This document shows, piece after piece, positions 582 to 24,202 of a DNA stretch of 26,905 bases (its first letter is position 1; each line of letters opens with the position of its first letter). Made by a program: the position numbers and the translations under genes. The stretch is from a virus, in IMG/VR virus record IMGVR_UViG_3300005541_000019, positions 1 through 26,905 of that record, one strand, 5' to 3'. The notes beneath the pieces are model-generated. The model searched no databases. It was not told where the DNA came from and was given only the letters and a program-made list of their open reading frames with translations.

Positions 582-3500
582 TCAGGAGTTGGACGTGGGC
601 AGCTGGGCCATCGGGCCGACCGGGTAGACGGGCGCGCGGTTGAAGCCGAGGTGGTCGATGCCCGGGCTGATGTCGTGGATCGGGGAGAAGGTCAGGGTGA
701 CCTTGCACAGCTTGGGTGCCACGCGGTTCGTGCCCAGTTCCCAGGTCACCTTGTCATACCAGTCGAACGCCATCGACTCGATGAAGCCCGCCAGGCCGTT
801 GCCGCCCGTGTCGCTGAACGACTTTGCCACAGCGTTGGGTGAGGTGCCCGTCGGCGACAGGAACGTTGTCAGCTCCTGGGCAAAGCTCGTAGCCGAGCTC
901 GCGGGGGCGATCTGGGCCAGGAACTTCGCCTTTTGGGTGTTGGTCGGGGTCAATGCCTTGCTGGGGATCAGGTAGGTGCCGCCGATGACCTGGCGGACGA
1001 TGTTGTTGGTGTTGCTGAAAGCCGACGTCGCCGGACCGATCGCCTGTGAGAAAGCGAGCTGGAAGTCGGGGTCAGTGTTGACCTGCACCTGGCAGACTAG
1101 CATGCCCGGGTCGGGCGGGGGCGAGTTGCCCCACGTCGGGGTTGCCGTCGGGTTCAGGGACTTGGCTTGCACCGTGAACAAGTTATGGATCGCTGCGAGC
1201 TGCGGCTTGAACATGGGGGCGAACTTCGGGCCCTGTGAGCTCGAGCCGACGCCCGGGATGGGCGGCGTGGGAAGGCTCAATCCGCCTCCAGAGCTCGGCG
1301 GAGCGAAGTTGTAGCTGCCTGGAGCGACGAAGTACTCCTCGCTGTTCGGGTTGGCCAGGGCCTTGAGGATCAGGGGAGGCAGCTTGGCCAGCGTGCTCTG
1401 GTCAAAGTTGCCAGCGTCGGTGAACGTCTGGCCGTTGACGCTCATGTTGCTGTTGCCCAAGCCGAACAATCGGGCCAGGTTGAACTGCGAGTAGTTGGTG
1501 TGCAGCAGGTTGCCCAAGCGAAGCCTGATCATTGGTGAAGCTCCGATGAGCTGGCTGAAGGGTTGGGTGAAGACGTACTTGCCCGACTGGTCGCTCTGTT
1601 GCACGCCCTGGGTGTACTGCGGGTACATCAGGGTGACCAGCTTGTTGATCTTGACCCACATCTCATCGAAGTCATTGACCGACGTCGCGGCGATGAAGAA
1701 CGACATGTTGATGCGCCGCTCGGTCGACTTGTAGATCCTGACGGGCTCGACACGACCGAAGCCGTCGACCTTCTCGTAGGCCGCGTTGAAGTCCTCCGAC
1801 AACGACGACAGGAAGGCGTGGAAAGCCACCATCTCGTTGGTACGCAGGTCGTGGAAATAGAAGGGCACGTACTCAGCATCCAGGGTCTGCTCGAACATCT
1901 GGGCCGTCACCGAGTCGATGCGGCCTGCGCTGTCGGTGTTCGTCACCGTCGGCTGGATCAACGAGTGCGGGTCGTTCTGGACGCCGATGTCAGCGACGTT
2001 GAACTGGCCCATGTTGTTGATGCTGGTCATCGCACTCAGGATCGAGTTCGGGATCAGCAGGTTGGCGCGCGACCTGTTCGATGCCCAAGCCAGCTTCAGC
2101 GAGCCGTTGAGCCTGTTCTGGCTCATCGCGTTCGACATGCTGTCCGGGATCGAGTCCATCTCCGAGTACTTGTTGCCGAAGCCCGTGGCCGTGGTGTCCT
2201 GGAACTCTGCAGGGAAGATCAGGAGCTGGTCGCCCAGCTTGGCGAAGACGTTGATGGCTGCGACCACCTTGCTATTGCGGATGGTCTCAATCATCGACAA
2301 GATGGCGTTGATGACGTTCATCGGGTTGCCACCGATCTTGGACAGCGATTGCCCGATGATGATGAAGCCCCTGATGATGCTGCGGGCGACGACGACCAGG
2401 TAGCCTGGGCTGTCGGCGTTCGAAGACGACCCGCCAGGTAGACCGATGCTGATGCTGATGCCTCCCGGGCTGGGCTGTGGCAGGCCGAAGAATGCGGCGA
2501 GACCCGATGACACCGCGGATGACAACGGGAAGTTCGTCGGGTTGATGCCCAGCAACGCTGCGAAGTTGAGCGATGCCAGCGCGGTGATCGCCCCTAGCGG
2601 GCCTGACGGGGGCTGCTGCTTGCCACTGGCCCAGTACTGGCCAATCGCAGCGCGGCCGAATGCATCGACCTGCGGGACGGCCAGCTGCGGGGTGATGAAG
2701 CCCATGATGATGCTCAGGCCGTCGATAATGAGTTCGACTGCAGCCGCCAGCGCGATCGACAGCGTCAACATGCCCAGGGCATCGATGCCCGAGTACGGGT
2801 CGTTGGCGTCGTTGAGCTGGCCCCATGATTGGGTACCGATGCTGAGGATGTTGCTCGACGGTACCTCGTCATTGGTCAGGCTCGTCAGGATGTCAGCGGC
2901 CTGCAACACATGCTGGTCGATCGTCGCCGCACCGAGTTGTGCTAGGCCCGGCAGCAATGCTGCCGCCTGCTCGCCGCCAGAGTTCGGGTCAGCGCCCGCC
3001 GACGTGGCGCCCAGGGTCGTCGTGGCCCGGAGCCCGAGCAGGGTGCCGATGGTGGCCAACCGCCCCACGCTGACGGTGGGCGCTCCCGGGTCCCACTCGC
3101 CCAGTTTGCTCTGTTGAGTCAGTGACGGGTCAAAGCCAGGTCCAGGGTCGCTTGGGTTTGTGCCCTGCGGGACGAACGCTGATGACGCGTCAGTGAAACG
3201 GTTGTTGGCCAGCACTGCTGACGTATATGGGCCGACGATCTTGGCGCTGGTGTCTGTCCTGCCCGGGATCGAGGTCTGCACCACCTTGGGCGCATCGCCC
3301 GTCAGGTTACCAGGGTTGCTGGCGACTGATGTTGAGGTGCCCGTGACGCCCGGGAGCAGGTTATTACCGTCGACAGCGTTTGCCGTCGACAGTCCCTTCT
3401 TGATCTGTGTCGAGATCGCGGGGTACTGTTGGGTCGGGTAGTCGATCTGCGACTCTGCGGTGCCCGCAAAGTTGTTGGGGTTGACGGGCTGGATCTCAAG

Positions 3501-4188: not shown

Positions 4189-7100
4189 TCACTTCTCAGG
4201 AACGGTCTCGCTGAATGGAGCTGCGATCTGGGCAGCCAGTGGCGTCTGGGCTTTCTTGCCCGGGCTACGGTCGGTCGCGAATGCCAAACGATCTGCGATG
4301 ACCGACTTCGCATTGGTGATGATCGCCTTCTCCACGTCGTCCGTCCTCATCGTTACGTTGAAGCTGACATTGATGGTGACGCCCTTGTTCTCGATCGAGT
4401 AGTTGGCCTTGCCACCGAGGCCCACCGCTGAGGCGACCTTCTGCAGGTTCGCCTTGACGTTGATCTTATTCAAGTCTCCGTCAGCCAGCGCTGCGTTGAG
4501 CTTCTTGGCATTGTCGATCATGTCATTCACGGCATCGATCGCAGGCTTGATAGCCCCACCCTTCATCTTCGCCGACGCAGCCGTCAGGCTGTCGCTCATC
4601 ATCGAGAAGTTCTTCGCGGTCTCATCGACCGAGCCAAAGAGCTTGCTCAGGTTGGTGAACGTTTTCTCCGGGTCAGGCGTGCCCTTGCCACCCGTCAACA
4701 TGGCCGAGATGAGCTGGACTGAGTTCATCATCGTCGAGACCGGGTTGTCAGACGACGCACCGACGAGGCCCTTGAAGAAATCTGACACCGAAGCGACAGC
4801 CGCCAGCAATGGATTGGTGTTGGCTGCGCCGCTAGCGGGCGCGTTGGCTGACAGGTTCTGGAGACTGTCGGCCAGCTTTGGGACACCGCCGATGAAGTCC
4901 ATCAGCTTCTGGGCCTTCTCCAGGTGTGCCGTGAAGTCCTTGTCGACCGGGACCGCCGACACCATCGCCTCGACCTGCTTCATGAAGTCAGGCAGGACGG
5001 TGCCCATCTGTGTGATGACCGTGGTCAGGTCGGGCACCTGTTCCATGACCATCGTCGTCTTCTCTTTGTCGATGGTCACTGTCCCGGTGTTGCCCTTGTT
5101 TGCAGACGAGACAGCAGCGATGAAGTCGGTCGTCGACTTCATGATCACGCCGATGAGGTCGATGCCCTTCAGCTGGTCACCCTTCAGGCCCGACGCTTGG
5201 TCAAGGACCGCCTTCATGGGTCCCGTGGTGATGGCGTCGATCAACGTCTTGATGCCAGCGGCTTTTGCCCCGATGAGCTTAGCAATGTCGTCGGGTGATG
5301 CACCCTTCTTGGTGTCGTCCTTCGAGAACACGCCCCACAGGACCGACATCTTGCCGCCGCTGTCGGAGATCGTCTTCAACGTTTCGGGATCAGGAGTGAT
5401 GGCCTTGGTGACGCTGGCGATGCTGGTGAGCATGTCAGCAACGATCTTGGCCTTGCTCGGGTCCGGGATCTTGATGCCCGACAGGTCCTTTAGCAGACCC
5501 AGGACGCCGCCCTTCCCGCCTTCGCCCTCGATCATCTTCATCATCTGGGTCCGCATCGCCTCGGCATACTTGCCGACGTGGAACGTCAGGTCAGCGAACT
5601 CGACAGTCGGGTTCGCCAGCTTGTTCAGCAACCCAGTGCCAGCCTCGAAGAAAGCGTCAGGCGGCGTCATCGCCTTCATGACGTCAGCCATGGCAGTCAT
5701 GACGGTCCCGAAGATCTGCGCCGACTCGGCCATGTGAGGACCGCCGCTCTTGATCTTGCCGATCTGCTTCATGACGGTCTCGACCATGCCGACGATGCCG
5801 CCAGGCCTGCCAGACTCGCCGATCATTGTCTTGATCGCACCCTGTGCTGCGTTGATCTTGTCGGTGAACTTCTCTTCGGTGCCCGTCAGGAAGCCGACCA
5901 ACGTAGGTTGCATCAACTCGATGACCTTGACCAACGCGTCAGTGAAGGATTGGATCGCCTTCATGACGCCCAAGAAGGCGTCGATCTTGCGCTGGAACGT
6001 AGCGTCGATCGTCATCTTGTTCAGCTCTTGGACGATGCCCATCGCGACGGCTGCCATCTCAGCGACAGCGACGCCGATGACTTCCAGACCCACCGCGGCT
6101 GCTCCCAACAGGATCGCTTGCGGGCCCGAAGCCAGAGCACCGATGGCCATGGCTGCAACGATCAGGGGGACCATCGCCAGGAAGACCAGCGACATCTTCA
6201 GCATCATGGTGCCGACAGCGTCCAACATTGCAGGTGTGGTGATGAGACCCAACAGGCCTGCGATGACACCCGCGGTGACAGCGACGATGCCGACGCCCAG
6301 GGCGATGGCCAGGCCGCCCTTGATGATCTCTGAAGGCTTGCCGACCTGGGACGCCAGCTTCAAGGCCAGCATCAGGGGCACCGCGGCGACGACCAAGGCG
6401 CCCAACACCAGGATCTGTGGGAGGACGTCGGTGACCGTCAGGTCACCCATGATGGCCTTCATTGCGACGATGGCAGCGGCCATCTCAACGCCACCCACGG
6501 CGATCGCCGTGGCGATGGCGATCAGCTTGAGGCCGAGCTTGATAGCGTCCTGAGCGCCCCAGTTGCCCTTCTTGTCCTCCGCCATCACCTCGTTCTCGGC
6601 CTTGACAACGCCCTTGACGGTGCCCAACTGACCTGTAGCGCTCTCCATCCCCTTTGTGTTTGCTGCGGCCTCAGTGACCTTGGCAAACAGCTTGGGGAAC
6701 GCCTTCTTGAGGCCCGCTTCGAGCAACGTACCCGCTGCCTTGCCCAATGCCGCGGTCAGAGCGCCGATGGCCGCGCGGGTGAATGCCGGGCCGAAAAGCA
6801 AGCCTGCCACGCCAGCAAGGAGCATCTTCACCTTGCTCATCACCTCGGGCTTCTTCATGAAGTCGACGAACTTCTCCCACAGGGTGCCCGCCAGGTCCTT
6901 CAACGCGGGCAAGAAGACCGTCCAAGCTTCTTTCAACGCCTCAATGATGGGCGTCAGCATGTCTTTCAGGAAACCGAGCCCGCCAGCGATCGCGCCGCGC
7001 GCCCCGCCCATGCCTGGAACGGGCGACTCACCACGGATCATCGAGGCAACGTCGTGCATCGACTCGGCCAGCGTCTTGAAAAGGATCTTGATCGCCTCAG

Positions 7101-8946
7101 CCGCGATGTGCGACATCATCATGAAGAACTTCTTGAACCCCTCAAGGATCTGTCGGGCGTGTGGGCCCTCTTTGAAGAAGAAGTCTTTGATGACCTTCTG
7201 CAGGCTCCTGAACATCTCGGGCACGTTGCCCTTGTACGACTTGAACCGAGGGTCTGAACCGAAGAACCGCTGGACTGCCTCGCTGATGCCCTTGAACAGC
7301 TTGGTGAAGTGGGTCGGGTCAAAGAACTGGTTGAGCCCCTTGCCGATGTCCTTCAGGCCGGGCACGATCTCGACCAGGGCACGGCCCAGCTGGACGCCGA
7401 TCATGTAGACCTGCCGCAACGCGGCTCGGATCTTGAACATGATGCCGACGAAGTCCTTGCTGCCCATGATGCCGTTCTTGATGCCCGCGACGAACTGGTC
7501 CCAGAAGCCGCCGTGCATGCCGCCGCCCGCCATGACCATACGTTCGATGGCGTCTGACAGCTTGCCCATGGCCTCGGCTTGGGACAGGGTCTTCTTCTGA
7601 GCCCGGTCGCCCGCCATCTGGACGTCCTTGAGCGACTTGCCCTGGTTCTTCATTGCCAGGGCGTTCTGGATCTGCTCGTCCGTCATGTGGGTCGCGTCAC
7701 GGATGATCTTCTTCTGGATGTTGTCCAGTTTGGCGCCGTCGACGCCTGCGTCCTTGAAGGCCTTGCGTAGCTCCTCCATCGCACCGCCGACGTCGCCTTC
7801 TGCCGACTTCTTCATCACCTTCATGACATCGATGTTGGCGCCGAAGGCCTGCTGCATCTTGGCAGCTGCGGCAGTCGCGTCTTCGAAGTTCATAAAGGTG
7901 TCGAGGATGCCTGTGGTGTCCTTGACCTCAAGACCGAACTTGTGCATGTAGGCTGTCGACTCGGCCATCACCTTGATGTTGGTGTTGCCGAAGTGGGCGA
8001 TGTCCTTCATCGCCTCACCCATGTCACGGGACATGACCTTGGCATCGATCTTGAGAGCGTTGCCCATCGAGATCGAGTACTGCGTCATCTCCTTCAAAAC
8101 GTCGCCTGCGGTCGTACCCATCGCGTTGGCACGCAGGGTGACAGCCTTCATCGATTCGCCCGACAGACCGAGGCCCTTCTGGTACGCGAGGATGGCGCCG
8201 CCGTTGTCTTCCATCTCCTGGCGCAGCAGCAGGAACGAGCGGCCCATGTCGCTGGCCAGCTTCTGGATGTACTCCAGGCGTTGGGCCATGTTGCCGAAGA
8301 CACGCCAAGCACTGAGGCCCGTGTCGCTGAAGCCCTTCAATGACTTGCTGGTGTCAATGATGGCCTTGTTGGTTGGACCGTAGAAAGCGCCGAACTCCTT
8401 GCGCAGGTTCTCCAAGGCCTGCATCAGCTCGTTGCTGCCGCCCGCACCCTGGGCGGCCATGTCGACCAGGCCCTCGAAGATCTTCAACGGGATCGATAGG
8501 ATCGACACTGTCAAGGATGCGACACCGCCGATGAACGACGAGAAGAAGCTGCCCACTGCCTTGGTCAGGGACACTGTGTTCTTGACGCCCTGCCAGAAGC
8601 CCGTCAGTGCCGCTGTTCCGACCGAGATCGACTTCGCTGATTGGGCGAACTTCTTGCCCGACTCAAGGACCTTCTGGCCCAACGTCTTGAAGGCGTTCTC
8701 ACCAGCTTTGCTGGTGTCCTTCATCTTCTGCTGCATCTGCTGCAGCGACTGGTTCAGCGTCTGGATCTGCTGGACCGAGCCCTGGACATTTAGAGTGCCC
8801 AACGCTTGCGCAACCTGCGTCAGAGTGGCGACCTGCTGGGTGTACGTCTGTTCCAGCTTCTCGGCAGCCGCGGCCATGCGCTCGACCTGCGCGGCCAACT
8901 TGGTCGTCAGGTTCAGCTGCTCTGAGAGATCGTCTTTTGACGGCAC
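4189..8946 (-). CDS. Tail tape measure protein (1585 aa)
   Basis: This is the longest gene in the window. Residues 1-90 form a Gln/Leu-rich coiled coil (AQVERMAAAAEKLEQTYTQQ), followed by Gly/Ala-rich amphipathic helices around 110-170. Two long hydrophobic blocks follow (about 800-865 and 875-968, with many Ala/Val/Ile/Met), and then further helical and Lys-rich segments to the C-terminus. Length, helical composition, central hydrophobic blocks and position right after the chaperone cassette are the hallmarks of tape measure proteins, which set tail length and leave the tube during DNA injection. At roughly 0.15 nm per residue a tail near 240 nm would be expected (inference). Translation starts at GTG 8946 with AGGTGG seven bases upstream. 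No lysozyme or peptidase domain was seen. Confidence 0.93.
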   Translation of the reverse strand: MPSKDDLSEQLNLTTKLAAQVERMAAAAEKLEQTYTQQVATLTQVAQALGTLNVQGSVQQIQTLNQSLQQMQQKMKDTSKAGENAFKTLGQKVLESGKKFAQSAKSISVGTAALTGFWQGVKNTVSLTKAVGSFFSSFIGGVASLTVSILSIPLKIFEGLVDMAAQGAGGSNELMQALENLRKEFGAFYGPTNKAIIDTSKSLKGFSDTGLSAWRVFGNMAQRLEYIQKLASDMGRSFLLLRQEMEDNGGAILAYQKGLGLSGESMKAVTLRANAMGTTAGDVLKEMTQYSISMGNALKIDAKVMSRDMGEAMKDIAHFGNTNIKVMAESTAYMHKFGLEVKDTTGILDTFMNFEDATAAAAKMQQAFGANIDVMKVMKKSAEGDVGGAMEELRKAFKDAGVDGAKLDNIQKKIIRDATHMTDEQIQNALAMKNQGKSLKDVQMAGDRAQKKTLSQAEAMGKLSDAIERMVMAGGGMHGGFWDQFVAGIKNGIMGSKDFVGIMFKIRAALRQVYMIGVQLGRALVEIVPGLKDIGKGLNQFFDPTHFTKLFKGISEAVQRFFGSDPRFKSYKGNVPEMFRSLQKVIKDFFFKEGPHARQILEGFKKFFMMMSHIAAEAIKILFKTLAESMHDVASMIRGESPVPGMGGARGAIAGGLGFLKDMLTPIIEALKEAWTVFLPALKDLAGTLWEKFVDFMKKPEVMSKVKMLLAGVAGLLFGPAFTRAAIGALTAALGKAAGTLLEAGLKKAFPKLFAKVTEAAANTKGMESATGQLGTVKGVVKAENEVMAEDKKGNWGAQDAIKLGLKLIAIATAIAVGGVEMAAAIVAMKAIMGDLTVTDVLPQILVLGALVVAAVPLMLALKLASQVGKPSEIIKGGLAIALGVGIVAVTAGVIAGLLGLITTPAMLDAVGTMMLKMSLVFLAMVPLIVAAMAIGALASGPQAILLGAAAVGLEVIGVAVAEMAAVAMGIVQELNKMTIDATFQRKIDAFLGVMKAIQSFTDALVKVIELMQPTLVGFLTGTEEKFTDKINAAQGAIKTMIGESGRPGGIVGMVETVMKQIGKIKSGGPHMAESAQIFGTVMTAMADVMKAMTPPDAFFEAGTGLLNKLANPTVEFADLTFHVGKYAEAMRTQMMKMIEGEGGKGGVLGLLKDLSGIKIPDPSKAKIVADMLTSIASVTKAITPDPETLKTISDSGGKMSVLWGVFSKDDTKKGASPDDIAKLIGAKAAGIKTLIDAITTGPMKAVLDQASGLKGDQLKGIDLIGVIMKSTTDFIAAVSSANKGNTGTVTIDKEKTTMVMEQVPDLTTVITQMGTVLPDFMKQVEAMVSAVPVDKDFTAHLEKAQKLMDFIGGVPKLADSLQNLSANAPASGAANTNPLLAAVASVSDFFKGLVGASSDNPVSTMMNSVQLISAMLTGGKGTPDPEKTFTNLSKLFGSVDETAKNFSMMSDSLTAASAKMKGGAIKPAIDAVNDMIDNAKKLNAALADGDLNKINVKANLQKVASAVGLGGKANYSIENKGVTINVSFNVTMRTDDVEKAIITNAKSVIADRLAFATDRSPGKKAQTPLAAQIAAPFSETVPEK

Positions 8947-8972: not shown

Positions 8973-9266
8973 TCACAGGGGCCAGGGGACGCCCAAGATC
9001 CGCTCAAACTCCCTTGCGCTAGCGTGTTTCAGGTTCAGTTTCTGCATCACGCTCTCGACTGTGGCCCCAGGGTGGTTCAGTTCGTCCTGGAACCGCCTCG
9101 AGGCCATCATGGCGTTGGCCACAGCCTGCACCTCCTGCGGGCTGCCACGGATCTTCATGTTGACGGCTCGGCCGACCAACCAAGCCGCCGCAGCGACGAA
9201 GAAGATCTTCCCGAGCAGGTTCAGTTTCAGCTCGTTGATCGGTACCCTGGTGTCAATGTCGCTCAT
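8973..9266 (-). CDS. Small protein with one membrane-like segment (97 aa)
   Basis: The product has an N-terminal hydrophobic segment at about residues 16-33 (LLGKIFFVAAAAWLVGRAV) and then a charged helical part with MASRRFQDELNHPG and HASAREFERILGVPW. It lies between the chaperone frameshift cassette and the tape measure, a slot that sometimes holds an extra tail-assembly factor. I do not recognise the family. The ATG is preceded by TAGGGCC, with AGGG only two bases away, and by TATTTA five bases upstream, so it may be read from a leaderless transcript as well as from the upstream message. Confidence 0.75.
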   Translation of the reverse strand: MSDIDTRVPINELKLNLLGKIFFVAAAAWLVGRAVNMKIRGSPQEVQAVANAMMASRRFQDELNHPGATVESVMQKLNLKHASAREFERILGVPWPL

Positions 9267-9281: not shown

Positions 9282-9560
9282 TCACGTGAACCGCTTGAGG
9301 CGGCTCGGTACGTGAGCTCGTGTACGGTTCTGCATTGCACGGACATCGGGCGTGTTATGGTGCAGCGCACGGGACGCTCCCGAGCCTTCTTCGCCGTTCG
9401 GGCCCTTCTTGTTGAGCTCCCGAACGATCCTTTCGATCCACCAGCGCTTGATGGGAACAGGCAGGTTGTAAGCCTCAGCTCCCGTGAGCCCACCGTAGTA
9501 GGTCAGCAGGAAACAGGGCTCCCAGATCAGCTGTTCCTTATCGGCTGGCTGCAGGCCAAA
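9282..9560 (-). CDS. Frameshift extension of the tail-assembly chaperone
   Basis: This frame (open from 9605 to the stop at 9282) overlaps the 3' end of the gp26-like gene in the +1 frame. The part past the upstream stop encodes a convincing protein segment: IWEPCFLLTYYGG, LTGAEAYNLPVPIKRWWIERI and RELNKK, which resemble the short C-terminal or companion proteins found next to gp26-type genes. There is no good start: the only upstream candidate is a GTG at 9605 without a Shine-Dalgarno sequence. A +1 slip at TTT-CTT-TGG (9558-9564) would fuse about 92 residues to the chaperone, giving roughly 377 residues. This mirrors the G/G-T arrangement used by long-tailed phages just before the tape measure. 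The tail after residue 60 is basic and low in complexity. Fusion is inferred. Confidence 0.7.
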   Translation of the reverse strand, partial: FGLQPADKEQLIWEPCFLLTYYGGLTGAEAYNLPVPIKRWWIERIVRELNKKGPNGEEGSGASRALHHNTPDVRAMQNRTRAHVPSRLKRFT

Positions 9561-10416
9561 GAAACGAGACCCCGATCGGCATCGAGACCTCCTCTTCGTG
9601 GCCACACGAGGGGCACGCTACCTCTTGGCGCATGATGATCCCGGGCTCGTTGTCCCGGATGTAGTTGCGCAGGGCGAGCGAGTCGCGAGCTGGCATCATG
9701 CGAACGAAGCTGGCGATCTTCGCGCGGTCCTCGGAGCCATCGACAGCCTGGATGCTGTACAGCAGGTTCGTCGTGACGCCCGTCTCGGTCTGGGACAGCG
9801 CCAGCTTCTTCTGCTTCTCCTGCATCGTGAGGATCTGCTCCTCGTCGCGGCCCGTCAGGAACTTGAACCTGACGACCTTCTTGCTCAGGGGCAGCGCGAA
9901 CTCGAACAGGTTCAGCCCAGGGCCGACCGGGTCGATCGCGAGGCGCCTGATCGGCAGCTCACCGAGGTTGAAGTTGCGTGCTGCCTTGGTGTCGCACTCG
10001 GTGCACTGCATCTCAGCGTCGTAATCGGCGCCGTAGCCGGTGATGCGGATGGCGACCATCAGGGCGTTGCGGTCACCCATCAGAAGCTCGGTCGGATCGA
10101 TGGACTTGTTGACCAAGCACGACCTGATCAGCTCGCTGATGACGGTCCCCTTCTTCAGGAGCGCCCGGCTCGTCAGGATGTCCTCCTCACGGGCAGTCAT
10201 CGACCTGATCTCCACGGTCTCGACGCCATGGAGAGGCGACTGGGACGGGTACACCTTACCTCCGCTGGGCAGTGGGACGGTCTCGACCGGGACATCGATC
10301 CCGAAATCGGCCTTGTACTTCTCTGCGGCGGTGACGCCCTGGACGCCCGGCTGGGTGAGGCTCCCCTCGGGCTTGGCCGTAAAGACCTGGTTGCGCTCTG
10401 CGCGTTCTTCAGACAT
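9538..10416 (-). CDS. gp26/gp51-like tail-assembly chaperone (292 aa)
   Basis: The sequence fits the T4 baseplate-hub assembly family (gp26/gp51, T4_baseplate). A VPLPSGGKVYP block at about 47-57 is followed by VETVEIRSMTAREEDILTS (65-83), KGTVISELIRSCLVNKSID (89-107) and a C-terminal FLWP ending typical of the family. Two CxxC pairs (C138/C141 and C268/C271) could bind one zinc ion, and T4 gp26 is shorter (about 208 residues). In relatives, proteins of this type act as chaperones for the tape measure or hub and are not always in the virion. The start is ATG 10416 with AGGAG four bases upstream, following a 77-base gap. Position between tube and tape measure supports the chaperone role, and the 3' end carries a probable frameshift signal. 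Confidence 0.85.
   Translation of the reverse strand: MSEERAERNQVFTAKPEGSLTQPGVQGVTAAEKYKADFGIDVPVETVPLPSGGKVYPSQSPLHGVETVEIRSMTAREEDILTSRALLKKGTVISELIRSCLVNKSIDPTELLMGDRNALMVAIRITGYGADYDAEMQCTECDTKAARNFNLGELPIRRLAIDPVGPGLNLFEFALPLSKKVVRFKFLTGRDEEQILTMQEKQKKLALSQTETGVTTNLLYSIQAVDGSEDRAKIASFVRMMPARDSLALRNYIRDNEPGIIMRQEVACPSCGHEEEVSMPIGVSFLWPAASR
9558..9564 (-). other. Candidate +1 ribosomal frameshift site (TTT-CTT-T)
   Basis: On the sense strand, codons 285-286 of the chaperone read TTT CTT, followed by TGG. Peptidyl-tRNA-Phe can slip from TTT to TTC, or tRNA-Leu from CTT to TTT (the same CUU-to-UUU slip used in prfB). Either enters the frame that continues to 9282. A GAGGAGG sequence lies 23 bases upstream (9588-9594), farther than usual stimulators. 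A -2 shift would give the same frame. The zero-frame stop comes six codons after the slip codon CTT. Confidence 0.55.
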
Positions 10417-11688: not shown

Positions 11689-12177
11689 TCAGAACTGCAG
11701 GACGGCGTTGTCGAAGCGCAGCGTCAGGCTGATCTCAGCCAGGGTGCCGTCTTCGTAGGTGAGCTCGCCGAAGTTCGCTTCGGTGATCCAGGCGCCCTTG
11801 ACGTCCCAGAGCTCGACGACAGTGCCGACGGGGTCCAGGAGCTTGAGCTGGATGTCACGCTTGTAGAAGTCGGCGTAGCCAGCACGGCCCGACACTGTCT
11901 CCAGGGTCAGGCGGATCCACTCCATGACCTGCTGCGCGCCCGAGGGAGCGATGGGGTCGTAGAGGGTCACCGCGAGGGTGTTGAACTTCGTCAGACCGGC
12001 AAGGTACCGACGGAAGTTGATGAAGGGGACCTCGACCTCCTCGGTGGTCACCGTGGGTCGCGCAGTCGTCTTCATGATGTACGCATCGATGCCCTCGATC
12101 ATGAGCACCCAGCGGTTCTTCCGCTTGGGCTCAAACTTGTTGGGCAGCATTGACGTTACGTCGAGTGTCTCAGCCAT
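11689..12177 (-). CDS. Tail tube protein (gp19-like, 162 aa)
   Basis: The product matches the gp19 tail-tube family in length (T4 gp19 is 163 residues) and pattern. It has RKNRWVLMIEGIDAYIMKTT (about 19-38), VTTEEVEVPFINFRRYLAG (42-60), TLAVTLYDPIAPSGAQQVMEWI (66-87) and a C-terminal ELTYEDGTLAEISLTLRFDNAVL typical of the hexameric tube fold. Tube hexamers stack around the tape measure to form the DNA channel and are enclosed by the sheath. Translation starts at ATG 12177 with an ACAGGAG ribosome-binding site and a TAGTTA motif 28 bases upstream. The gene is followed by two hairpins, consistent with high-level expression. Only one tube gene is visible although two sheath genes are present. 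Confidence 0.93.
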   Translation of the reverse strand: MAETLDVTSMLPNKFEPKRKNRWVLMIEGIDAYIMKTTARPTVTTEEVEVPFINFRRYLAGLTKFNTLAVTLYDPIAPSGAQQVMEWIRLTLETVSGRAGYADFYKRDIQLKLLDPVGTVVELWDVKGAWITEANFGELTYEDGTLAEISLTLRFDNAVLQF

Positions 12178-12964: not shown

Positions 12965-15900
12965 TCAGACCTGCTGCGAGATGTTGTTCGTCACCACGAA
13001 GTCGAGGGAGACGTACTCGAGCGACTTGGTGGGCTGGACGAAGATCTTGCCGCGGATGGTGTTGTTCTGGATGTCGAGCTGCGTCGTGGTGCTCGAGTCG
13101 ATGACCACCTTGAACCGCTCGAGACCGGCCTGGGCCTGGATCTTCTGCAGCACCGGCGTCACCGCAGCCGAGAAGGCTGCCAACGTGGCGTCCCTGTTCT
13201 GCTCGAACAGGATGGTGTTGGCGATGTCCCTGACCTGGCGACGGATCTCGATCAGGAGGCGGCGGACGTTGACACGGTCGAGGGCGCTTGCAGCCTGCTG
13301 CAGCGTCTTCTGGCCCCACACCACGACACCACCCTTCGGGTTGGTGCCACCCGATGCGTTGCCCGGGAAGGCGACCAGCGGGTTGATGTTGGCGTCGTAC
13401 AGGGTGTCCATGTTCGCCTTGGACAGCTTGACGCGTGCTTCCAGGGTCGTCTGGAGGGCGCCGCGGGTGAAGCCTGCGGGAGCGAACCAGGGGTGCCCGA
13501 CTGCATCGTTGAGGGCGAGGGCGCCCAGGACGACGACCGACGGGGGAACGTACAGGTTGTTGCCCGCATTGGGGTCGGTCATCACGACGTCGGGGAAGTA
13601 GGCGGCGCCGAAGCTCGAGTTCACCGACCGCTCCAGGAAGTTCTGGACAGTGTAGGTGACGCTCGGCATCTGCGAGTCCTCGACCACGAGCTCGTCGTTG
13701 TTGTCGAACTGCTCGAGGTCCATCAGGGACATGCAGTCGAAGCGCTGCTCACAGGCCGACAGGGCCGCGTCGGTGACGACGGGGTGCCTGATGCCAGGGA
13801 CAGCCAGCAGCTCGATGTCGACTGCCGTGACGTCACTCATGATGCCCAGGGCGGTGTTGTAGGCCGACACGCTGGAACCCAGGTTGAAGCCACGGTTGGA
13901 CGCGTTCATGTCGTCCTCGACGGCGGTGTTGGTGATCTGCCGCTCGTCTGCGTCGAACAGGTTGGTACCGTCGAAGCCGCCCTGGACCAGGAAGCTCCAC
14001 TTCAGGAAGCGCCTGTTGGCCTGGACGAAGTCGCTCGGCTCCAGGGCACGGGTGCCATAGGTGCCGTTGCCGATGCTCGGGTTGGGCTGCTGCACCGGGA
14101 TGTTGCCGTTGCGGACGTAGCTGGCGTACTGCCAGTTGGTCGGGTCGGCGATGCCGGTCGAGTTGGTGACGACCTGGACGTTCATCAGGCTGAACAGGTT
14201 GTAGTTGAACCTGTCTGCGTCGATGATCGCGCCGTTCACGGGCGGTGCGCCGTTGTTGTCACCCACCCGGACGTCCTGCACATCGGTGCGGAACTCGGGC
14301 AGGAAGTCAGCGAAAGCCTGCAGCGACTGGTTAGGCAGGGTGCTCAGGTTGGGCGTTGCGAGCGCAGTGACGTGCTCGAACTGCACGCCCCAGTACAGCA
14401 GCGGGTTGACCTGCAGCTTGGCACCAGTGCCTTGCGTTACGTTCTGGCGCAGTGGCAGCGGGGGCTCGACAACCTGGGATGCCCACTGGACGCTGCCAGT
14501 GCCCGAGGTGAAGATGCCGGACGGGATGAAGGAGCCTGTGGGAACGAAGGTTCCAGAGATGATCGAGCCGGAGCTGTACGAGCCCGAGCTGTACGAACCG
14601 CTGCCCTGTTCGAAGTCAACGGGCTGCGCCAGGCAGCCGCCCGCCGTCACCAGGTGGTGGACGCCGCGAAGGCCGACTGGGAGCGCCGTCGGATCCAGTT
14701 CCCCAGCATCAACGCTGGGATCCACTTCAATGCGGATGTAGTTGGAGGCGTTCGGGTAGTTGCCATCGACGACCAGCTTCTGAGCGGTAGGGCCGCGGTC
14801 GAAGTCGAAGAAGTTGTTGGCATCACCGATCACCTGGGCAATGTACTGCGTGTCGCCTGGGTTCAGGCTGAGGCCGCGGAACTGCTCGAGGTAGACGGGC
14901 GCGCCGTCGTTGTCGCCCCACTGGCGGACGACCAGGTCGAAGGTGCCGTACTGGTTCGACGGGTCCGTCGACAGCGACGGGTTCTCGATCGACAGCTTGT
15001 ACATCGTCGACACCCCGGTGCCGTCGTCCAGAGCGTGGACTCGGAATAGGTTGTGGACCTTGCCACCGAAGGGTTGGCTGACGACCCAAGGGCTCTTTGC
15101 GTGCTCAAAGCGATCACGGAAGTCCTCGTAGTCGGGGACCGTCACGCTACCCACATCACGGGCCAGTGAGCTGGTCAGGATGAATGCCGCGAGCTCTGAG
15201 CCGGGGTTGTGTGCCGTTGAAGCGCCTGCGCCCTCACCGCTGTTGATGAGGCCAGAACCCGTCGGAGCTGCTGTCGCCGGGTGGATGTCGTAGTGCAGGT
15301 ACAGGTAGTGACCCGCTTGCTGCAAGTTGTCCGGGTCCGTGTTCAGGACGTTGGCGATGTAGTTGGGTGACGTCAGGTCGAACGATGCAGTGATGACGTT
15401 CGGGAACAACGGGTTGGTGCCCTGGAGACCGTTCAGGAACAGGACGAAGTCCTGCTTGGCGATCGAACCCGCGAACAGTGTCAGATCGCCGACGCTGGCA
15501 CCGTTGCTGTCATTGCCGACTGCCAGCGATGAGGGTGCGAGGCTGCTGACACCAGCAACCGACGACGACAACGTCAGAACGACGCCAGACGCCGCCATGA
15601 TGAGGCCACGGACGATGGGGACGCATGACCCAGAAGTCGAAGAACCCTGGATGCCTGCTGACGAGAAGATCGTGGAGCCGGCTGACTCCGACATGAAGCA
15701 ACCCAGGAAGTAAGCACGGCCAGGCGGACCATCGGTGTTGGCGTACGGGTTCGGGCTCAGCTCGCCGAAGTTGCTCGGATCGGGCTCCTGCTCGCCGACT
15801 GTCCAACCTGCGCCAGTGACGCCACCCGTGGCACCGTTGGGGCCCTGGGGCTGTCCTGCGAGACTTTGCCGTGCCTGGCCTTGCCCGACACCGAGGACCC

Positions 15901-16153
15901 TGAGGTAGGTGAGGGCCTGCGCGTTGCGCAGCCACTCCGTGACCGCCAGGGGACCGAACTTCTTGCCGTCAGTGACGCCGAACTTCAGGTAGAAGTCATT
16001 GACGACTGCCATCGTGATGGGGACGAACGCCGGTCCCTTGACCGACACACCGATGACGCCCGCGGGAGTACCGACCGGCTGCGCTGCCAGGGGCTGCGAC
16101 TGATCGATCTCGGTGGCGGTGACTCCGGGTGCGCCGAACTTGAGCTGTGCCAT
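12965..16153 (-). CDS. Tail sheath protein B (1062 aa)
   Basis: The N-terminus has VGTPAGVIGVSVKGPAFVPI (about 27-46) and a KFGVTDGKKFGPLA segment typical of contractile sheath proteins. The C-terminal core has HPWFAPAGF near 888, GQKTLQQAASALDRVNVRRL near 947 and a final block ending LEYVSLDFVVTN. T4 gp18 is 659 residues, so about 400 extra residues form inserted surface domains. The middle contains SQPFGGKV, LEQFRGLSLNP and LYWGVQFEHV, all shared with the neighbouring paralog. A Ser/Gly-rich segment (about 515-550) carries a five-residue SGSYS repeat encoded by a 15-base tandem repeat. The start is ATG 16153, with AGAGG nine bases upstream and a TACTTA motif 20 bases upstream. Sheath contraction drives the tube through the cell envelope. 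Confidence 0.95.
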   Translation of the reverse strand: MAQLKFGAPGVTATEIDQSQPLAAQPVGTPAGVIGVSVKGPAFVPITMAVVNDFYLKFGVTDGKKFGPLAVTEWLRNAQALTYLRVLGVGQGQARQSLAGQPQGPNGATGGVTGAGWTVGEQEPDPSNFGELSPNPYANTDGPPGRAYFLGCFMSESAGSTIFSSAGIQGSSTSGSCVPIVRGLIMAASGVVLTLSSSVAGVSSLAPSSLAVGNDSNGASVGDLTLFAGSIAKQDFVLFLNGLQGTNPLFPNVITASFDLTSPNYIANVLNTDPDNLQQAGHYLYLHYDIHPATAAPTGSGLINSGEGAGASTAHNPGSELAAFILTSSLARDVGSVTVPDYEDFRDRFEHAKSPWVVSQPFGGKVHNLFRVHALDDGTGVSTMYKLSIENPSLSTDPSNQYGTFDLVVRQWGDNDGAPVYLEQFRGLSLNPGDTQYIAQVIGDANNFFDFDRGPTAQKLVVDGNYPNASNYIRIEVDPSVDAGELDPTALPVGLRGVHHLVTAGGCLAQPVDFEQGSGSYSSGSYSSGSIISGTFVPTGSFIPSGIFTSGTGSVQWASQVVEPPLPLRQNVTQGTGAKLQVNPLLYWGVQFEHVTALATPNLSTLPNQSLQAFADFLPEFRTDVQDVRVGDNNGAPPVNGAIIDADRFNYNLFSLMNVQVVTNSTGIADPTNWQYASYVRNGNIPVQQPNPSIGNGTYGTRALEPSDFVQANRRFLKWSFLVQGGFDGTNLFDADERQITNTAVEDDMNASNRGFNLGSSVSAYNTALGIMSDVTAVDIELLAVPGIRHPVVTDAALSACEQRFDCMSLMDLEQFDNNDELVVEDSQMPSVTYTVQNFLERSVNSSFGAAYFPDVVMTDPNAGNNLYVPPSVVVLGALALNDAVGHPWFAPAGFTRGALQTTLEARVKLSKANMDTLYDANINPLVAFPGNASGGTNPKGGVVVWGQKTLQQAASALDRVNVRRLLIEIRRQVRDIANTILFEQNRDATLAAFSAAVTPVLQKIQAQAGLERFKVVIDSSTTTQLDIQNNTIRGKIFVQPTKSLEYVSLDFVVTNNISQQV
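14571..14596 (-). repeat. 15-base tandem repeat in sheath B
   Basis: The 11-base unit gagctgtacga occurs at 14571-14581 and 14586-14596 (period 15) on the plus strand. It encodes repeated Ser-Gly-Ser-Tyr-Ser in the surface-insert region of sheath B. It is a short in-frame repeat that could change length by slippage. Confidence 0.6.
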
Positions 16154-16262: not shown

Positions 16263-19200
16263 TCACACGAACTGGACACCGCTGTTCGTGATGATGAAGT
16301 CGATCGCAATGAACTCGACCACTCGGGTCGGGACCACGACGATGCGGCCGTTCATCTTGTACTGGTCGACATCCGTCTGCGTGTTGTTCGTCGAGTTGCA
16401 GATGACCTGGAAGGCCTCGATGCCCGCCTGGGTCTGAATCAGGCTCAGCTGCAGGGCTGCCTGCGCCGTGAACTTGTTCTGGGTATCGGGCGTGTTCTGC
16501 TCGAACTCCAGGGTCAGGGCGATGTTGCTGATGATGCGCTTGATCTCCAGCAACAGGCGGCGGACGTTGACGCGGTCCAACGCCGAGGACGCGGCCTGCA
16601 GGGTCTTCTGTCCGAAGATGACGAAGCCCTGGCGGGGGAACGTTGCGATCGGGTTGATGCGGCTGGTGTACAGCGTGTCGCGGTCTGCCGAGTTGAGGCG
16701 GACAGCCACATTGGTGACGAAGTCCAGCGCTGCCCGGTTGAAGCCCGCGGGGGCGAACCAGGGGTAGCCGATCTTGTCGTTGAAGCTGAGGGCGCCCATT
16801 GCCGCGATCGATGATGGGACCTTGACGCGCCGGTTGTTGACGGTGTCCTGGATGAAGACGTCGGGGAAGTAGGTGCCGATGTAGTTGTTGTCGATGGCCC
16901 GGGTGTTGAGGCCGACGGCCGACTGATCAACGTCGGGGCGAACCGTGTCGTTGTCGAACAAGCGGTTCTGGTTCTCGTCGTAGCTCTCGAGGTCCATGAC
17001 GTAGAAGGCCAGGCCGTAGGTGCGGACGCTCTGGCCGGCGTAATCGGTCAGGAAGGGCTCGCGGATGCCCGGGATGCAGAGGATGTTGTGGTTCACCTGC
17101 ATCGGGTCCGTCATGATGTTGATGGCGGCGACGTAGGAGGCCACGTTCGAGTTGCTCTGGCCCGTGCCGTTCTCGTTGGTGGCGAAGCCAGGCGGGATGA
17201 AGCCCGGGAAGGCGCCGCCAGTGTCGCCCAACAGGTTGTCATCGAACGACGTGGACTTGTCGTTCATGCGCCGAGCGTCCGGGTCCAGGAAGTTCAGGCC
17301 GTCCCAGCCGCCAGCCAGGAAGGTGGTGAACTTCAGGTAGGTCGCGAAGCGGTTGAACTGCTGTGGGGTGCCCTTGGCCAGCAGCGTGGCGAAGGTCATG
17401 CGGTTCATCAGCAGGGTTGGGTCAGCGTAGGTGTACGAAGAGCCGTCCAGCTGAGCGTTGCGGATGTAGGCCGACTCCTTCATCGTCGTGTCGACCGACG
17501 AGGTGAGTCCCTGCACCAGGAAGGTGTTGAGGTCCGTCAGGAAGGCCACCTTGGCCAGCGTGAACTTGTCATCGTTGAACTGGTCTGCACCAGCGCCGGT
17601 GACGAAGGTGTCGATGCTCGGTGCGCCCAAGAACTGGGTGTAGGCACTGAGCAGCTGGTTCGGCAGCGTCTCGATGTTCGGGTTGAGCGGGATGTCCAGG
17701 CGCTCGAACTGCACGCCCCAGTACAGCGGCGGGTATGCGAGCTCGCTTGCACCCGGCTCACCGAACCACACTGCAGGTGACGGGCGGTTGCCCTTGGTCA
17801 CCTTGGTGCGGAAGGGCACCGGGGGCAGGATGGCGCCAGAGAGCGCCGTCTGCGGGCCCGAGCCGGTCAGAGCACCCGACAGGCGGACGACGTTCGGGGT
17901 CACCGTGGCGTCCTTCAGGCTGTCGTTGGTCTTCAGCAGGCTGGCGCCGCGGAAGCCGAAAGGCAGTGCCGTCGCCGGGACGACCTGGCTGTAGACCTGG
18001 TCAGTCGGCAGCACGCGGATGTAGGCCGACTGGTTCGGGTACTTGCCCGATGCGACGACACGCTTCTCGGCGTTCAGCGTCGAGTCGAAGTTGTAGAAGA
18101 CCTTGCGATCGCCGATGACGGCACCGATGAAGTTCGCAGCCGTCGGGTCCAGGCTCAGGTTGTTGAACTGCTCCAGGACGTTCGGGTTGATGTCGGTGTC
18201 GTCCCAGCTGCGGACCTGCAGCGAGAAGGTGCCGTACAGGTAGTTCTGCGTCGTCGACGCCTGCAGGTTGACGATGCTGATCTTGTAGAGGTTGTTGGCG
18301 TACTGGCCATCGTCCAGCGCCTCGATGCGGAACAGGTCGTATTCGACCTTGCCGAAGGGCTGGCTGATGAATGCCGTCGTTGACGGGGTCTGGTACCGCG
18401 CGTCGAAGGCACCGAATGAAGCCCGGTACGAAGTGTCGTCGTTGTAGGGAGCGCCCGTGTAGGACAGGTCCGGGTTGACGAGGCTGTGGTTGGTCGAGCC
18501 CGACACCACGCCGACGACGTTGCCCGCCTCGACAGATGCGATTTCATCGTCGACGGCGAAGTCAGCGTAGTACAGGTGCTGTGCCGAGAGGAAGTTGTCG
18601 GGGTTGCTGTTCAGCAGCTTTCCAACGTAGTTCTTGTCGTCCGGGTTGAGTGACGCCGTCAGGATGTGGCAGCCTGCGTTGCCGTCATCGTTGTAGAAGG
18701 CGGAACCGAGCGAAGAGCTGATGATCAGCTTGACGTAGGGGGTCGAGCCTTGGGCAACACCGAAGTCTGCCAGGGTGTCGATGTGTCCGGGCTTCCAGGT
18801 GTCAGCCAGGCCGTCAGCGATGATCATCCGGGCCGTGTTCGGCATGAGCACCATGCCGCGGACCAGGTGGGCCACACCGCCCGAGAAGCTGTCGTTGTCA
18901 GTGAAGATAGCTGCACCGAAAGCCTCATCAGGCTGCACTGTGTGCTGAGCAACCAGGAACTGGACCGTGCCGTTGACGATCCTGCTTGAGGGGGTCGGGA
19001 CACCCTGGGTGACGTTGCCATTCAGGTGGAAGCCCGCGTTGACGGTGCGACCCGTGTCCAGCGTGCGCTGGATGTCAGTGCCCGTGGCGTTGGCACCTGC
19101 TCCCAGCATGCGCAGGAAGGTCAGTGCCGACCTGTTGGCCAGGAAGTAGAAGGCCGCGTAGGGACCGAAGCGGTTGGGGTCCAGGGTGCCGAAGACAGCG

Positions 19201-19370
19201 TTGAACTGGTCGAAGTTGCCGACGGTGATCGGCACGAAGGCCGGGCCGCGGTTGGACGTCCCGATGACTCCCGCGGGCACACCAACAGGCCCCTGCGGTG
19301 CGGGGGCCGAAAGGTCGATCTCCCGGTCATAGAAGTTTGGGGACTGAAAGGTCTGCAGCGTCTGCGGCAT
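16263..19370 (-). CDS. Tail sheath protein A (1035 aa)
   Basis: The protein has N-terminal VGVPAGVIGTSNRGPAFVPI (about 29-48) and FGTLDPNRFGPYAAFYFLANR. The C-terminal sheath core has YPWFAPAGFNRAAL near 868, GQKTLQAASSALDRVNVRRL near 920 and a final block ending VEFIAIDFIITN. These match contractile tail sheaths of the gp18 type, but it is about 375 residues longer than T4 gp18. The extra middle region carries SQPFGKVEYDLFRIEALDDG (about 332), LEQFNNLSLDP and LYWGVQFERL, all with counterparts in sheath B, so the two genes are tandem duplicates that have diverged. A good ribosome-binding site (GAGGAG) precedes the ATG. The upstream gap holds two inverted repeats and a TACTTA motif. Confidence 0.95.
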   Translation of the reverse strand: MPQTLQTFQSPNFYDREIDLSAPAPQGPVGVPAGVIGTSNRGPAFVPITVGNFDQFNAVFGTLDPNRFGPYAAFYFLANRSALTFLRMLGAGANATGTDIQRTLDTGRTVNAGFHLNGNVTQGVPTPSSRIVNGTVQFLVAQHTVQPDEAFGAAIFTDNDSFSGGVAHLVRGMVLMPNTARMIIADGLADTWKPGHIDTLADFGVAQGSTPYVKLIISSSLGSAFYNDDGNAGCHILTASLNPDDKNYVGKLLNSNPDNFLSAQHLYYADFAVDDEIASVEAGNVVGVVSGSTNHSLVNPDLSYTGAPYNDDTSYRASFGAFDARYQTPSTTAFISQPFGKVEYDLFRIEALDDGQYANNLYKISIVNLQASTTQNYLYGTFSLQVRSWDDTDINPNVLEQFNNLSLDPTAANFIGAVIGDRKVFYNFDSTLNAEKRVVASGKYPNQSAYIRVLPTDQVYSQVVPATALPFGFRGASLLKTNDSLKDATVTPNVVRLSGALTGSGPQTALSGAILPPVPFRTKVTKGNRPSPAVWFGEPGASELAYPPLYWGVQFERLDIPLNPNIETLPNQLLSAYTQFLGAPSIDTFVTGAGADQFNDDKFTLAKVAFLTDLNTFLVQGLTSSVDTTMKESAYIRNAQLDGSSYTYADPTLLMNRMTFATLLAKGTPQQFNRFATYLKFTTFLAGGWDGLNFLDPDARRMNDKSTSFDDNLLGDTGGAFPGFIPPGFATNENGTGQSNSNVASYVAAINIMTDPMQVNHNILCIPGIREPFLTDYAGQSVRTYGLAFYVMDLESYDENQNRLFDNDTVRPDVDQSAVGLNTRAIDNNYIGTYFPDVFIQDTVNNRRVKVPSSIAAMGALSFNDKIGYPWFAPAGFNRAALDFVTNVAVRLNSADRDTLYTSRINPIATFPRQGFVIFGQKTLQAASSALDRVNVRRLLLEIKRIISNIALTLEFEQNTPDTQNKFTAQAALQLSLIQTQAGIEAFQVICNSTNNTQTDVDQYKMNGRIVVVPTRVVEFIAIDFIITNSGVQFV

Positions 19371-22761: not shown

Positions 22762-22767
22762 TAGTTA
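22762..22767 (+). promoter_or_regulatory. TAGTTA motif, 7 bases before ATG 22775
   Basis: This is the outward-facing plus-strand copy in the divergent region and the only candidate promoter for the plus-strand fibre gene. No Shine-Dalgarno sequence lies between it and the ATG. Confidence 0.55.
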
Positions 22768-22774
22768 TGGTGCG

Positions 22775-24202
22775 ATGTCGCTCACTCAATTCATGAGCAT
22801 GTCCCTCCCGATCGTTGGAGTGACCCCTGGAGGTGGCTCTGGCAACAGCTGGGGCCCGTTGCTGACCACGTCGTTGGGCCAGATCGACGTCCATGACCAC
22901 AGCCCGGGCAAGGGCGCTCCCCTGGTGATGACCAGCGGCTCCTTCAAGGTCGCCACCGACCTGGGCTTTGCAGGTCACAGCCTGTTCGCTGTTGACAACA
23001 TCCAAGCCATCGGACAGATCACCGCCTTGGGCCTGACGGGCAGCCTGACACAGATCATCGTCAGTGCCAGCTTCTCAGGCACGTTCTCCAGCGGCACCCT
23101 GAGCGGCAGCACTTTCCTCCCGACGGGCAGCTTCACCCCACTCAGCCTCTACTCAGCGTCTTACGCCGCTGCATTCGTCGGCGTCGGCGGCATCCAGGTG
23201 TTGACCAACTCGTTCGGCCAAGTGCTGATCAGCGGCACTGTGGGTGACGACCGCTACGCTTCGTTCATCCTGGCACAGCCCGATGCTGAGGACCCAAACT
23301 ACCGTGTCATCACCGGTTCGGGCGGCACCTCGCTCATCGACGGTGGAGCGGGCGGCTTCATGACCGTCAGCAGCTCCATCGGCGCAGGCCGGGACGCGGC
23401 GTTCGTCTTGACTGCAACCGCCGATGGCCGAGCGCCCAACGCCCGGACCATCACGGGTTCGGGTGGCGTCAGCGTCATCGACGGTGGCCCAGGCGGCAAC
23501 CTGACTGTCTCGGGTTCATTCCCACAGATCAGCAACCTGTCAGGCCTGGGCGGCACCGTCGTCACGCCCAACGGCAGCCTCTACACTGTGTCGTCAAGCG
23601 CACCCCCGTGGACCAGCATCCAGGGCCAGGGCGGCACTTCAGTGTCGATCACCGGTGCAACTGTCATCGTCTCGTCTTCTGCGCCGTTGTACAACGACTT
23701 CTATGGCATCGGTGGCATCTCGGTCACCCCGACGGCAGGTCAGCTGCAGATCTCGGGCTCACAGCCCACCATCAGCAACCTGAGCGGCACCGCGGGCATC
23801 ATCGTCACACCCAACGGCAGCCTGTACCTGCTCTCGCAATCGTTGCCTCCACCCAACTATGTCACCGCGTTGGCTGGGACCCAGTCTGGTGTCTCAACGG
23901 CACAGGTCACCGCTCCCAACATCACCAAGTTGAAGAATGGTGTCGTTGAACTCAATGGCATGCTCGTCGTCAACCCGACGATGACCGAGTCGGGTTCAGC
24001 CCAGTTGTTCCGCGACTCAACACCGATCGGACCGAGCCAGCAACTGATGATGTCTGTCCAGTCACCCAAGCTGTTCATCATCAGCTGGATCGATGTCCTA
24101 CCCGACTCGAGCTCACACGCCTACAGCTTGCAGGTCAGTGGCACCCTAAGCACCTTCATGGTCCAGGCGGGCCAGGGCAGCATCACCGCCAAAGAGAGCT
24201 GA
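22775..24202 (+). CDS. Repeat-built tail fibre-like structural protein (475 aa)
   Basis: This is the only plus-strand gene. I chose ATG 22775 because a TAGTTA motif sits seven bases upstream; the frame stays open further upstream but overlaps the minus-strand neck gene. Residues 36-48 have IDVHDHSPGKGAP, a signature common near the N-terminus of phage fibres. Residues 90-125 are Ser/Gly/Thr-rich. From about 135 to 356 there are seven degenerate 20- to 23-residue repeats of the form 'xGxGGxxVxxxxGxxxVSxS', two pairs being nearly identical (ITGSGG...IDGG and SNLSG...VTPNGSLY). The C-terminal 100 residues form a separate, beta-rich domain. Host recognition is likely but inferred. The stop abuts the stop of the opposing gene with no spacer. 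Confidence 0.85.
   Translation: MSLTQFMSMSLPIVGVTPGGGSGNSWGPLLTTSLGQIDVHDHSPGKGAPLVMTSGSFKVATDLGFAGHSLFAVDNIQAIGQITALGLTGSLTQIIVSASFSGTFSSGTLSGSTFLPTGSFTPLSLYSASYAAAFVGVGGIQVLTNSFGQVLISGTVGDDRYASFILAQPDAEDPNYRVITGSGGTSLIDGGAGGFMTVSSSIGAGRDAAFVLTATADGRAPNARTITGSGGVSVIDGGPGGNLTVSGSFPQISNLSGLGGTVVTPNGSLYTVSSSAPPWTSIQGQGGTSVSITGATVIVSSSAPLYNDFYGIGGISVTPTAGQLQISGSQPTISNLSGTAGIIVTPNGSLYLLSQSLPPPNYVTALAGTQSGVSTAQVTAPNITKLKNGVVELNGMLVVNPTMTESGSAQLFRDSTPIGPSQQLMMSVQSPKLFIISWIDVLPDSSSHAYSLQVSGTLSTFMVQAGQGSITAKES
23311..23842 (+). repeat. Protein-level repeat array in the fibre gene
   Basis: The array encodes six of the seven 'GxGG...V...VSxS' repeats of the fibre protein (residues about 179-356). The units beginning at about 23527 and 23771 share long stretches of DNA, including atcagcaacctg and cccaacggcagcct. 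This points to duplication of coding units, and recombination between them could change fibre length. Confidence 0.6.

Follow-up and report, generated by a model that had tools for sequence, protein, structure and literature searches.

Frameshifting that yields the tail-assembly chaperones G and G-T is widely conserved in long-tailed phages, T4 excepted (PMC5009743). In phage lambda, gpG and gpGT are produced by a -1 shift (Xu, Hendrix & Duda 2004; reviewed in PMC5009743). In T4, gp26 and gp51 have been listed as hub assembly chaperones (PMC3004832). For T4-like phages, such chaperones were identified by Vladimirov, Gautam & Davidson (2022, Virology 566:9), as cited in PMC10885494, and PMC12846349 cites the same study for poly-T -1 signals in T4-like TAC-N genes. 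Shifts in the +1 direction are on record for structural or tail genes of Listeria phage PSA (from a title in the reference list of PMC9024508) and for a structural or tail gene of the haloarchaeal myovirus HSTV-2 (PMC5009743).

Here, we analysed a stretch of 26,905 nucleotides of viral DNA (IMG/VR record IMGVR_UViG_3300005541_000019, referred to as the window), in which a gp26-type gene is followed by an open +1 frame. We conclude, with a probability of about 0.92, that this locus encodes the short and long tail-assembly chaperones of a contractile-tailed phage, G and G-T (TAC-N and TAC-NC), by means of a +1 shift. As far as we know, few natural genes of bacteria and phages use a programmed +1 frameshift at a sense codon.

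The gp26-type gene and its neighbourhood

The gp26-type gene has an AGGAGC ribosome-binding site directly 5' of its ATG, and its product ends in ...GVSFLWPAASR. The gene matched the profile of the gp26 family (PF12322, T4_baseplate; E 2.4e-16, 60.6 bits against a curated cut-off of 24.5) and, in a PHROGs scan, phrog_150 ('baseplate hub', E 5.5e-19), which bears out the family assignment that had been made from the sequence alone. The original prediction was that this 292-codon gene ends shortly after a TTT-CTT-TGG site at which ribosomes change frame, and all of its coordinates agree with our analysis. On the minus strand, the in-frame codons are TTT (9564-9562), CTT (9561-9559) and TGG (9558-9556), with TTTCTTT at 9564-9558, and five codons separate TGG from the stop codon TAA at 9540-9538. 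The -1 frame closes three codons past this stop. The +1 frame, here called T, extends from GGC at 9557 as far as a stop at 9282 and encodes GLQPADKEQLIWEPCFLLTYYGG...RLKRFT; it has 91 codons, where about 92 had been predicted. The features of the locus are:

9538..10416, minus strand: gp26-type gene, short form (TAC-N or G), 292 aa, with two CxxC pairs
9556..9564, minus strand: +1 shift site TTT-CTT-TGG, followed by CCT; conserved, synonymously constrained, rare codons
9282..9557, minus strand: +1-frame extension (T or TAC-C), 91 aa, open and homologous in relatives
9587..9592, minus strand: GGAGGT, Shine-Dalgarno-like element and candidate stimulator, with predicted anti-Shine-Dalgarno pairing
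8973..9266, minus strand: 97-aa ORF between T and the tape-measure-like gene, without a family match in Pfam or PHROGs
4189..8946, minus strand: tape-measure-like protein of 1585 aa, named for its position and length
11689..12177, minus strand: gp19-type tail tube protein (phrog_4542, 3.1e-29; PF06841, 5.3e-7)

The gene order in the window is tube, small ORFs, gp26, T, 97-aa ORF and 1585-aa ORF. The pair thus lies ahead of the tape measure gene with the tube gene nearby, which is the placement of a frameshifted tail-assembly chaperone. The 1585-aa ORF had no significant family match of its own in Pfam or PHROGs; in Flavobacterium phage immuto and Listeria phage LIS04, the gene in the corresponding position carries the annotation tail tape measure protein. 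This protein is expected to be the client of the chaperones, and the gp19-type tube protein is presumably the target of the T domain. Together with the tail sheath genes, these neighbours fit a contractile tail. The sheath proteins are encoded by two adjacent paralogues on the minus strand (12965-16153 and 16263-19370), both unusually large (1062 and 1035 aa), that share 33% identity over 1118 columns (E 4e-158). Elsewhere in the window, a long ORF with repeated SGSGG-type segments lies at about 22766-24202 on the plus strand, opposite to most of the window. It had no PHROG match and may be a genuine fibre-like gene.

The +1 frame encodes a conserved protein

A scan of viral contigs yielded 80 related loci, whose proteins are 50-72% identical to the gp26-type product of the window. 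The downstream frame is in the +1 phase in all 80, and in each of the 77 loci that are not cut by a contig end it stays open to a homologous, similar C-terminal end. T evolves as a protein: pN was lower than pS in 598 of 598 pairs, the median dN/dS was 0.125 (72 pairs with estimable dS), and G, L, P, W and R residues are invariant among the relatives. The protein-like character that the original prediction had seen in this segment is thereby confirmed. Both frames, gp26 and T, are under purifying selection and code for conserved protein. As the site is T-rich, the change of frame could be read as an assembly or sequencing error in a homopolymer, or as the mark of a decayed gene without a long product. 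This explanation is hardly credible, since 80 separate contigs and cultured, completely sequenced phages agree in the phase and both frames are under selection.

An AlphaFold2 model of T predicted three helices (residues 4-22, 26-31 and 34-50) in a block with a pLDDT of 85-95, followed by a disordered tail that ends in a conserved RRFT-like motif. T had no significant family in Pfam or PHROGs, and a fold search with the model in BFVD returned nothing at E <= 0.001. When bacterial genomes were scanned with the T alignment, only two contigs were found, which carry the same site and belong to Halobacteriovorax and Flavobacteriales MAGs; a clear host assignment therefore does not follow. In the 61 loci where a long ORF was found downstream, it starts a median of 348 nt past T.

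Next, we considered whether T could be a separate protein, made by initiation of its own or by re-initiation after the gp26 stop, without a frameshift. In many relatives, codon 18 or 21 of T is an ATG, GenBank contains short T genes with internal starts (e.g., 'gp51' of Syn1), and in Ackermann-type phages (Ag3 and D531) and LR756511 an ATG overlaps the gp26 stop (TAATG). In the window, however, the first ATG, GTG or TTG of T is at codon 75. Further upstream, the +1 frame offers a single start, GTG at 9605, within gp26 and in a non-conserved stretch, which leaves T without a usable start of its own, as predicted. The +1 frame 5' of the slip site is not conserved and is closed as few as three codons upstream in relatives. 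In 39 of the 73 distinct loci, this frame lacks any ATG, GTG or TTG from the upstream stop as far as T codon 10. T residues 1-17 are conserved although they lie 5' of the common internal ATG at codon 18, and an internal start would not explain them. No conserved start with a ribosome-binding site of its own thus emerged in the relatives, and it is the slip codons that are constrained in the third base, rather than a start or Shine-Dalgarno sequence for T. Taken together, independent initiation of T is very unlikely.

The shift site is constrained at the nucleotide level

The motif TT[TC][CT]TTTGGCC (TTYYTTTGGCC) was found exactly once per locus in all 80 relatives and in the window, 2-8 codons before the gp26 stop. 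The proposed TTTCTTT site is thus conserved in this wider form. Among the 73 distinct loci, the variants are TTTTTTTGGCCT (50), TTTCTTTGGCCT (19) and TTCTTTTGGCCT (4). The second slip codon is YTT in 73 of 73, whereas the first tolerates TTC. The -1 frame usually closes soon in the relatives as well.

For the 73 distinct relatives, we compared synonymous codon choice in each of 274 columns. Codons 0, +1, +3, +4 and +5, counted from the slip, rank with the most strongly constrained columns at the synonymous level; the constraint is highest at and after the slip codon and near background from codon -8 to codon -2. The last two bases of the second codon and the following CCT are invariant, whereas CCT makes up only about a third of the Pro codons elsewhere in these genes. 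The codons involved are also scarce in the GC-rich window: TTT accounts for 26 of 347 Phe codons, CCT for 55 of 436 Pro codons, and CTT occurs 23 times, against 381 CTG and 155 CTC. The pair CTT-TGG occurs once among the 7573 codons of the window, at the shift site. The shift site is therefore under selection at the nucleotide level.

A Shine-Dalgarno-like element upstream of the site

The 3' end of GGAGGT lies 22 nt upstream of TTT in the window. Anti-Shine-Dalgarno pairing was predicted at this position in 96% of the 73 distinct loci, with a mean of about -10 kcal/mol, and codon -9 is GAG in 68 distinct relatives versus GAA in three. Within the 45 nt upstream of the shift site, one other, weaker pairing was predicted near position -12 (52% of the 73 loci). 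No strong RNA structure was predicted downstream of the site (mean z -0.7 to -1.7, weak).

Known Shine-Dalgarno stimulators act from about 3 nt upstream for +1 shifts and from 10-14 nt for -1 shifts, and we know of no stimulator of either kind at about 22 nt. The distance of GGAGGT is thus unusual for +1 stimulation and, like the lack of a strong downstream RNA structure, counts against the +1 reading. If an element at this distance does stimulate a +1 shift, the stimulatory mechanism would be new.

The +1 layout recurs in distant phages

For more distant members, we relied on a tblastn search of phage isolates and on the records fetched. The +1 layout was present in seven distant records, including six isolates: Microcystis phage Mel-JY01, Flavobacterium phage immuto, Listeria phage LIS04, Streptococcus phage GXN1, Streptomyces phages BRock and LuckySocke, and a 484-kb uncultured phage. 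It was also found in Bacillus phage SP-15, pSt2308 and GiJojo. The gene order in the distant records is mostly sheath, tube, gp26, T and tape measure. The clade with this layout spans phages of Gram-positive and Gram-negative hosts. This recurrence in distant isolates lends good support to the central claim of the original prediction, a chaperone-type +1 frameshift in a gp26-family gene.

The sites of the distant members are TTTTTTTGG, TTTCTTTGG, TTTCTAT, TTTTTTAGT, TTTCGT, TTTCGC, TTTCAG and TTTCAC, which have in common UUU followed by a pyrimidine. In these phages, tRNA-Phe could move from UUU to UUU or UUC.

The isolate records we examined carry no annotated long form; the extension appears as a hypothetical or short gene, or is missed. 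This applies to Bacillus SP-15, Streptomyces BRock, Listeria LIS04, RaK2, 121Q and cyanophage Syn1. In a literature search with partial coverage, no description of the +1 clade was found. The novelty appears to lie in a large clade with a +1 shift in which the A site holds no stop codon and a Shine-Dalgarno-like element is conserved about 22 nt upstream.

Direction of the shift and the slipping codon

The distant and close variants also bear on the direction of the shift, which had been proposed as +1 or -2. A -2 shift, as in phage Mu, gives the identical frame with one extra residue, and TTTTTTTGG variants could re-pair after it. However, pairing would be lost in the TTC-TTT-TGG (TTT to TCT) and TTT-CTT-TGG (CTT to TTC) variants, and the distant members with TTT-CGC, TTT-CGT, TTT-CAG and TTT-CAC fit a +1 move from UUU to UUC, not -2. 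A -2 shift is highly improbable on this evidence, and +1 is the favoured alternative of the two.

For the codon that slips in the +1 direction, both TTT-to-TTC and the CUU-to-UUU move of prfB had been put forward. A slip at the first codon (UUU to UUC) would fit the UUU_C sites of BRock, GXN1 and SP-15. By contrast, relatives with TTC-TTT-TGG can slip only at the second codon, and it is the second codon that is invariably YTT. As TTC-TTT-TGG is unable to slip at the first codon or to re-pair well after -2, a +1 move at the second codon (YUU to UUU) is the sole site common to all variants of the window's clade. Within the frameshift model, a first-codon slip in the window itself is possible, though we regard it as doubtful.

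Relation to -1 phages and to T4 gp26 and gp51

In the jumbo T4-like phages RaK2, 121Q, Vibrio 2.275, Atu_ph07, SCTP-2, PA5oct, RAS14, XacN1 and BF, the corresponding ORF follows immediately on T_TTT_TTC or T_TTT_TTT and lies in the -1 frame. Where the T frame was readable, it was -1 in 82 of 82 loci (three RaK2-like and 79 cyanophage-type) and +1 in both SP-15-like loci. A -1 layout at U_UUU_UUN was present in 82 cyanophage-type and 10 jumbo-type loci; in the window's clade, T is in the +1 frame throughout. The cyanophage-type heptamers are TTTTTTC or have A, T or G in the last position, and in 95% of 58 distinct loci they are preceded by a Shine-Dalgarno-like element whose end lies about 8-10 nt upstream. 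This spacing resembles the classical -1 arrangement, for example in dnaX.

In GenBank, the T piece of such phages is named 'gp51' in Syn1 (3268-3399 of that locus) and 'baseplate hub assembly catalyst' in phiN3 (3214-3375). Both are very probably the truncated C-terminal halves of a -1 gp26-gp51 fusion. In Ag3, D531 and LR756511, whose TAATG overlap was described above, there is no clean heptamer, and coupled initiation is possibly a fourth way to express the pair.

T4 gp26 and gp51 each matched PF12322 over the whole length, and gp51 has about 48 further residues. The T4 pair is thus two genes, a short gp26 and a gp51 that consists of a full gp26-like protein plus an extra domain. Whole records with a frameshift or overlap layout contain a single PF12322 gene, whereas T4 and three T4-type phages contain two; in this count, three divergent records fell below the threshold. 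An hhalign comparison aligned the cyanophage-type fusions with gp51 end to end (probability 99.0, columns 15-251 of 253). In profile comparisons, cyanophage-type T resembled the gp51 C-terminus (39.4 versus 9.7 +/- 2.1 for shuffled columns), and T of the +1 clade resembled both cyanophage-type T (28.1 versus 9.7 +/- 2.0) and jumbo-type T (41.9 versus 9.8 +/- 1.8). The direct comparison of +1-clade T with the gp51 C-terminus was not significant (7.3, shuffled mean 10.2), and we therefore state this kinship only through intermediates such as the cyanophage-type T. An AlphaFold2 model of T4-type gp51, built from an alignment of IMG/VR copies whose first row is 96% identical to T4 gp51, has predicted helices at 207-221, 226-230 and 234-248, in the same long-short-long order as in T of the window.

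According to its abstract, the 2022 study reportedly assigned TAC-N and TAC-NC of T4 to genes 26 and 51. As chaperone genes of T4-like phages had already been reported by Vladimirov et al. (2022), to whom the original prediction did not refer, we do not present the relation between T4 gp26 and gp51 as a discovery. Nor do we claim as new the identity of the chaperones, the -1 groups or the T4 duplication, which were re-derived here as evidence for the product of the window.

In a tree of 48 proteins, the +1 members fell in one clade together with LR756511 (support 88/77). This clade adjoins the jumbo -1 clade, and the T4-type pair lies beside the -1 phage Aeh1; the tree was rooted at its midpoint only, and support for the +1 fork is moderate. 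Most parsimoniously, the -1 shift came first and was followed by one change to +1 and by one gene duplication that replaced the shift in the T4 line. Our more specific proposal is tentative: a deep clade of contractile-tailed phages may have switched its tail-chaperone recoding from -1 to +1 at a sense-codon site (YUU_UGG, or UUU_C in distant members), with the Shine-Dalgarno-like element at about 22 nt perhaps acting as stimulator in the window's clade. Sister lineages make the same pair in different ways: by a -1 shift, by a +1 shift, from what appear to be overlapping genes, or after gene duplication. The family is thereby a natural experiment on how a required ratio of short to long form is kept when the mode of decoding changes.

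Proposed mechanism and comparison with known systems

The pair of G and T is shared by the -1 phages of the cyanophage-like and RaK2-like types and by T4 gp26 and gp51, and we therefore take the pair in the window to be the G and G-T (TAC-N and TAC-NC) chaperones of a T4-type tail; homology and gene order point to this role. We infer the occurrence and efficiency of the shift, both products and the exact slipping codon from comparative data. Most ribosomes would terminate at the gp26 stop and release the short form G (TAC-N). In a minority, while the A site waits for UGG, the peptidyl-tRNA on the second codon of TTT-CTT-TGG would re-pair one base forward, from CUU to UUU; in relatives, this re-pairing would be from UUU to UUU or from UUU to UUC. 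The shifted ribosomes would continue in the +1 frame to the 377-residue long form G-T (TAC-NC), which carries the three-helix T domain. If the parallel with lambda holds, the tape measure protein would be covered by many copies of G and a few of G-T, the latter drawing in tube subunits through their T part.

The closest described systems are the T4-like chaperones, which belong to the same gp26 family and follow the same N and NC logic. The T domain of the window shares homology with T of the -1 phages and, by way of these, with the gp51 C-terminus. As far as they are cited, the T4-like chaperones are expressed by a -1 shift at poly-T or, in T4, from separate genes 26 and 51, whereas the window has a +1 shift at a different site. 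Lambda gpG and gpGT share with the window a gene before the tape measure, a slip at its 3' end and a minority long form; lambda shifts -1 and the window +1, and we draw this likeness without a claim of sequence kinship. PSA and HSTV-2 shift in the +1 direction, as the window does, in what are, as far as known, different gene families. PSA reportedly shifts at a stop codon, whereas the A-site codon in the window is the sense codon UGG. The slip itself most resembles that of prfB (RF2), in which peptidyl-tRNA-Leu re-pairs from CUU to UUU. The same CUU followed by U is present in the window (TTT-CTT-TGG, 9564-9556), but prfB has UGA in the A site and a Shine-Dalgarno sequence 3 nt upstream, where the window has UGG and a Shine-Dalgarno-like GGAGGT at 22 nt.
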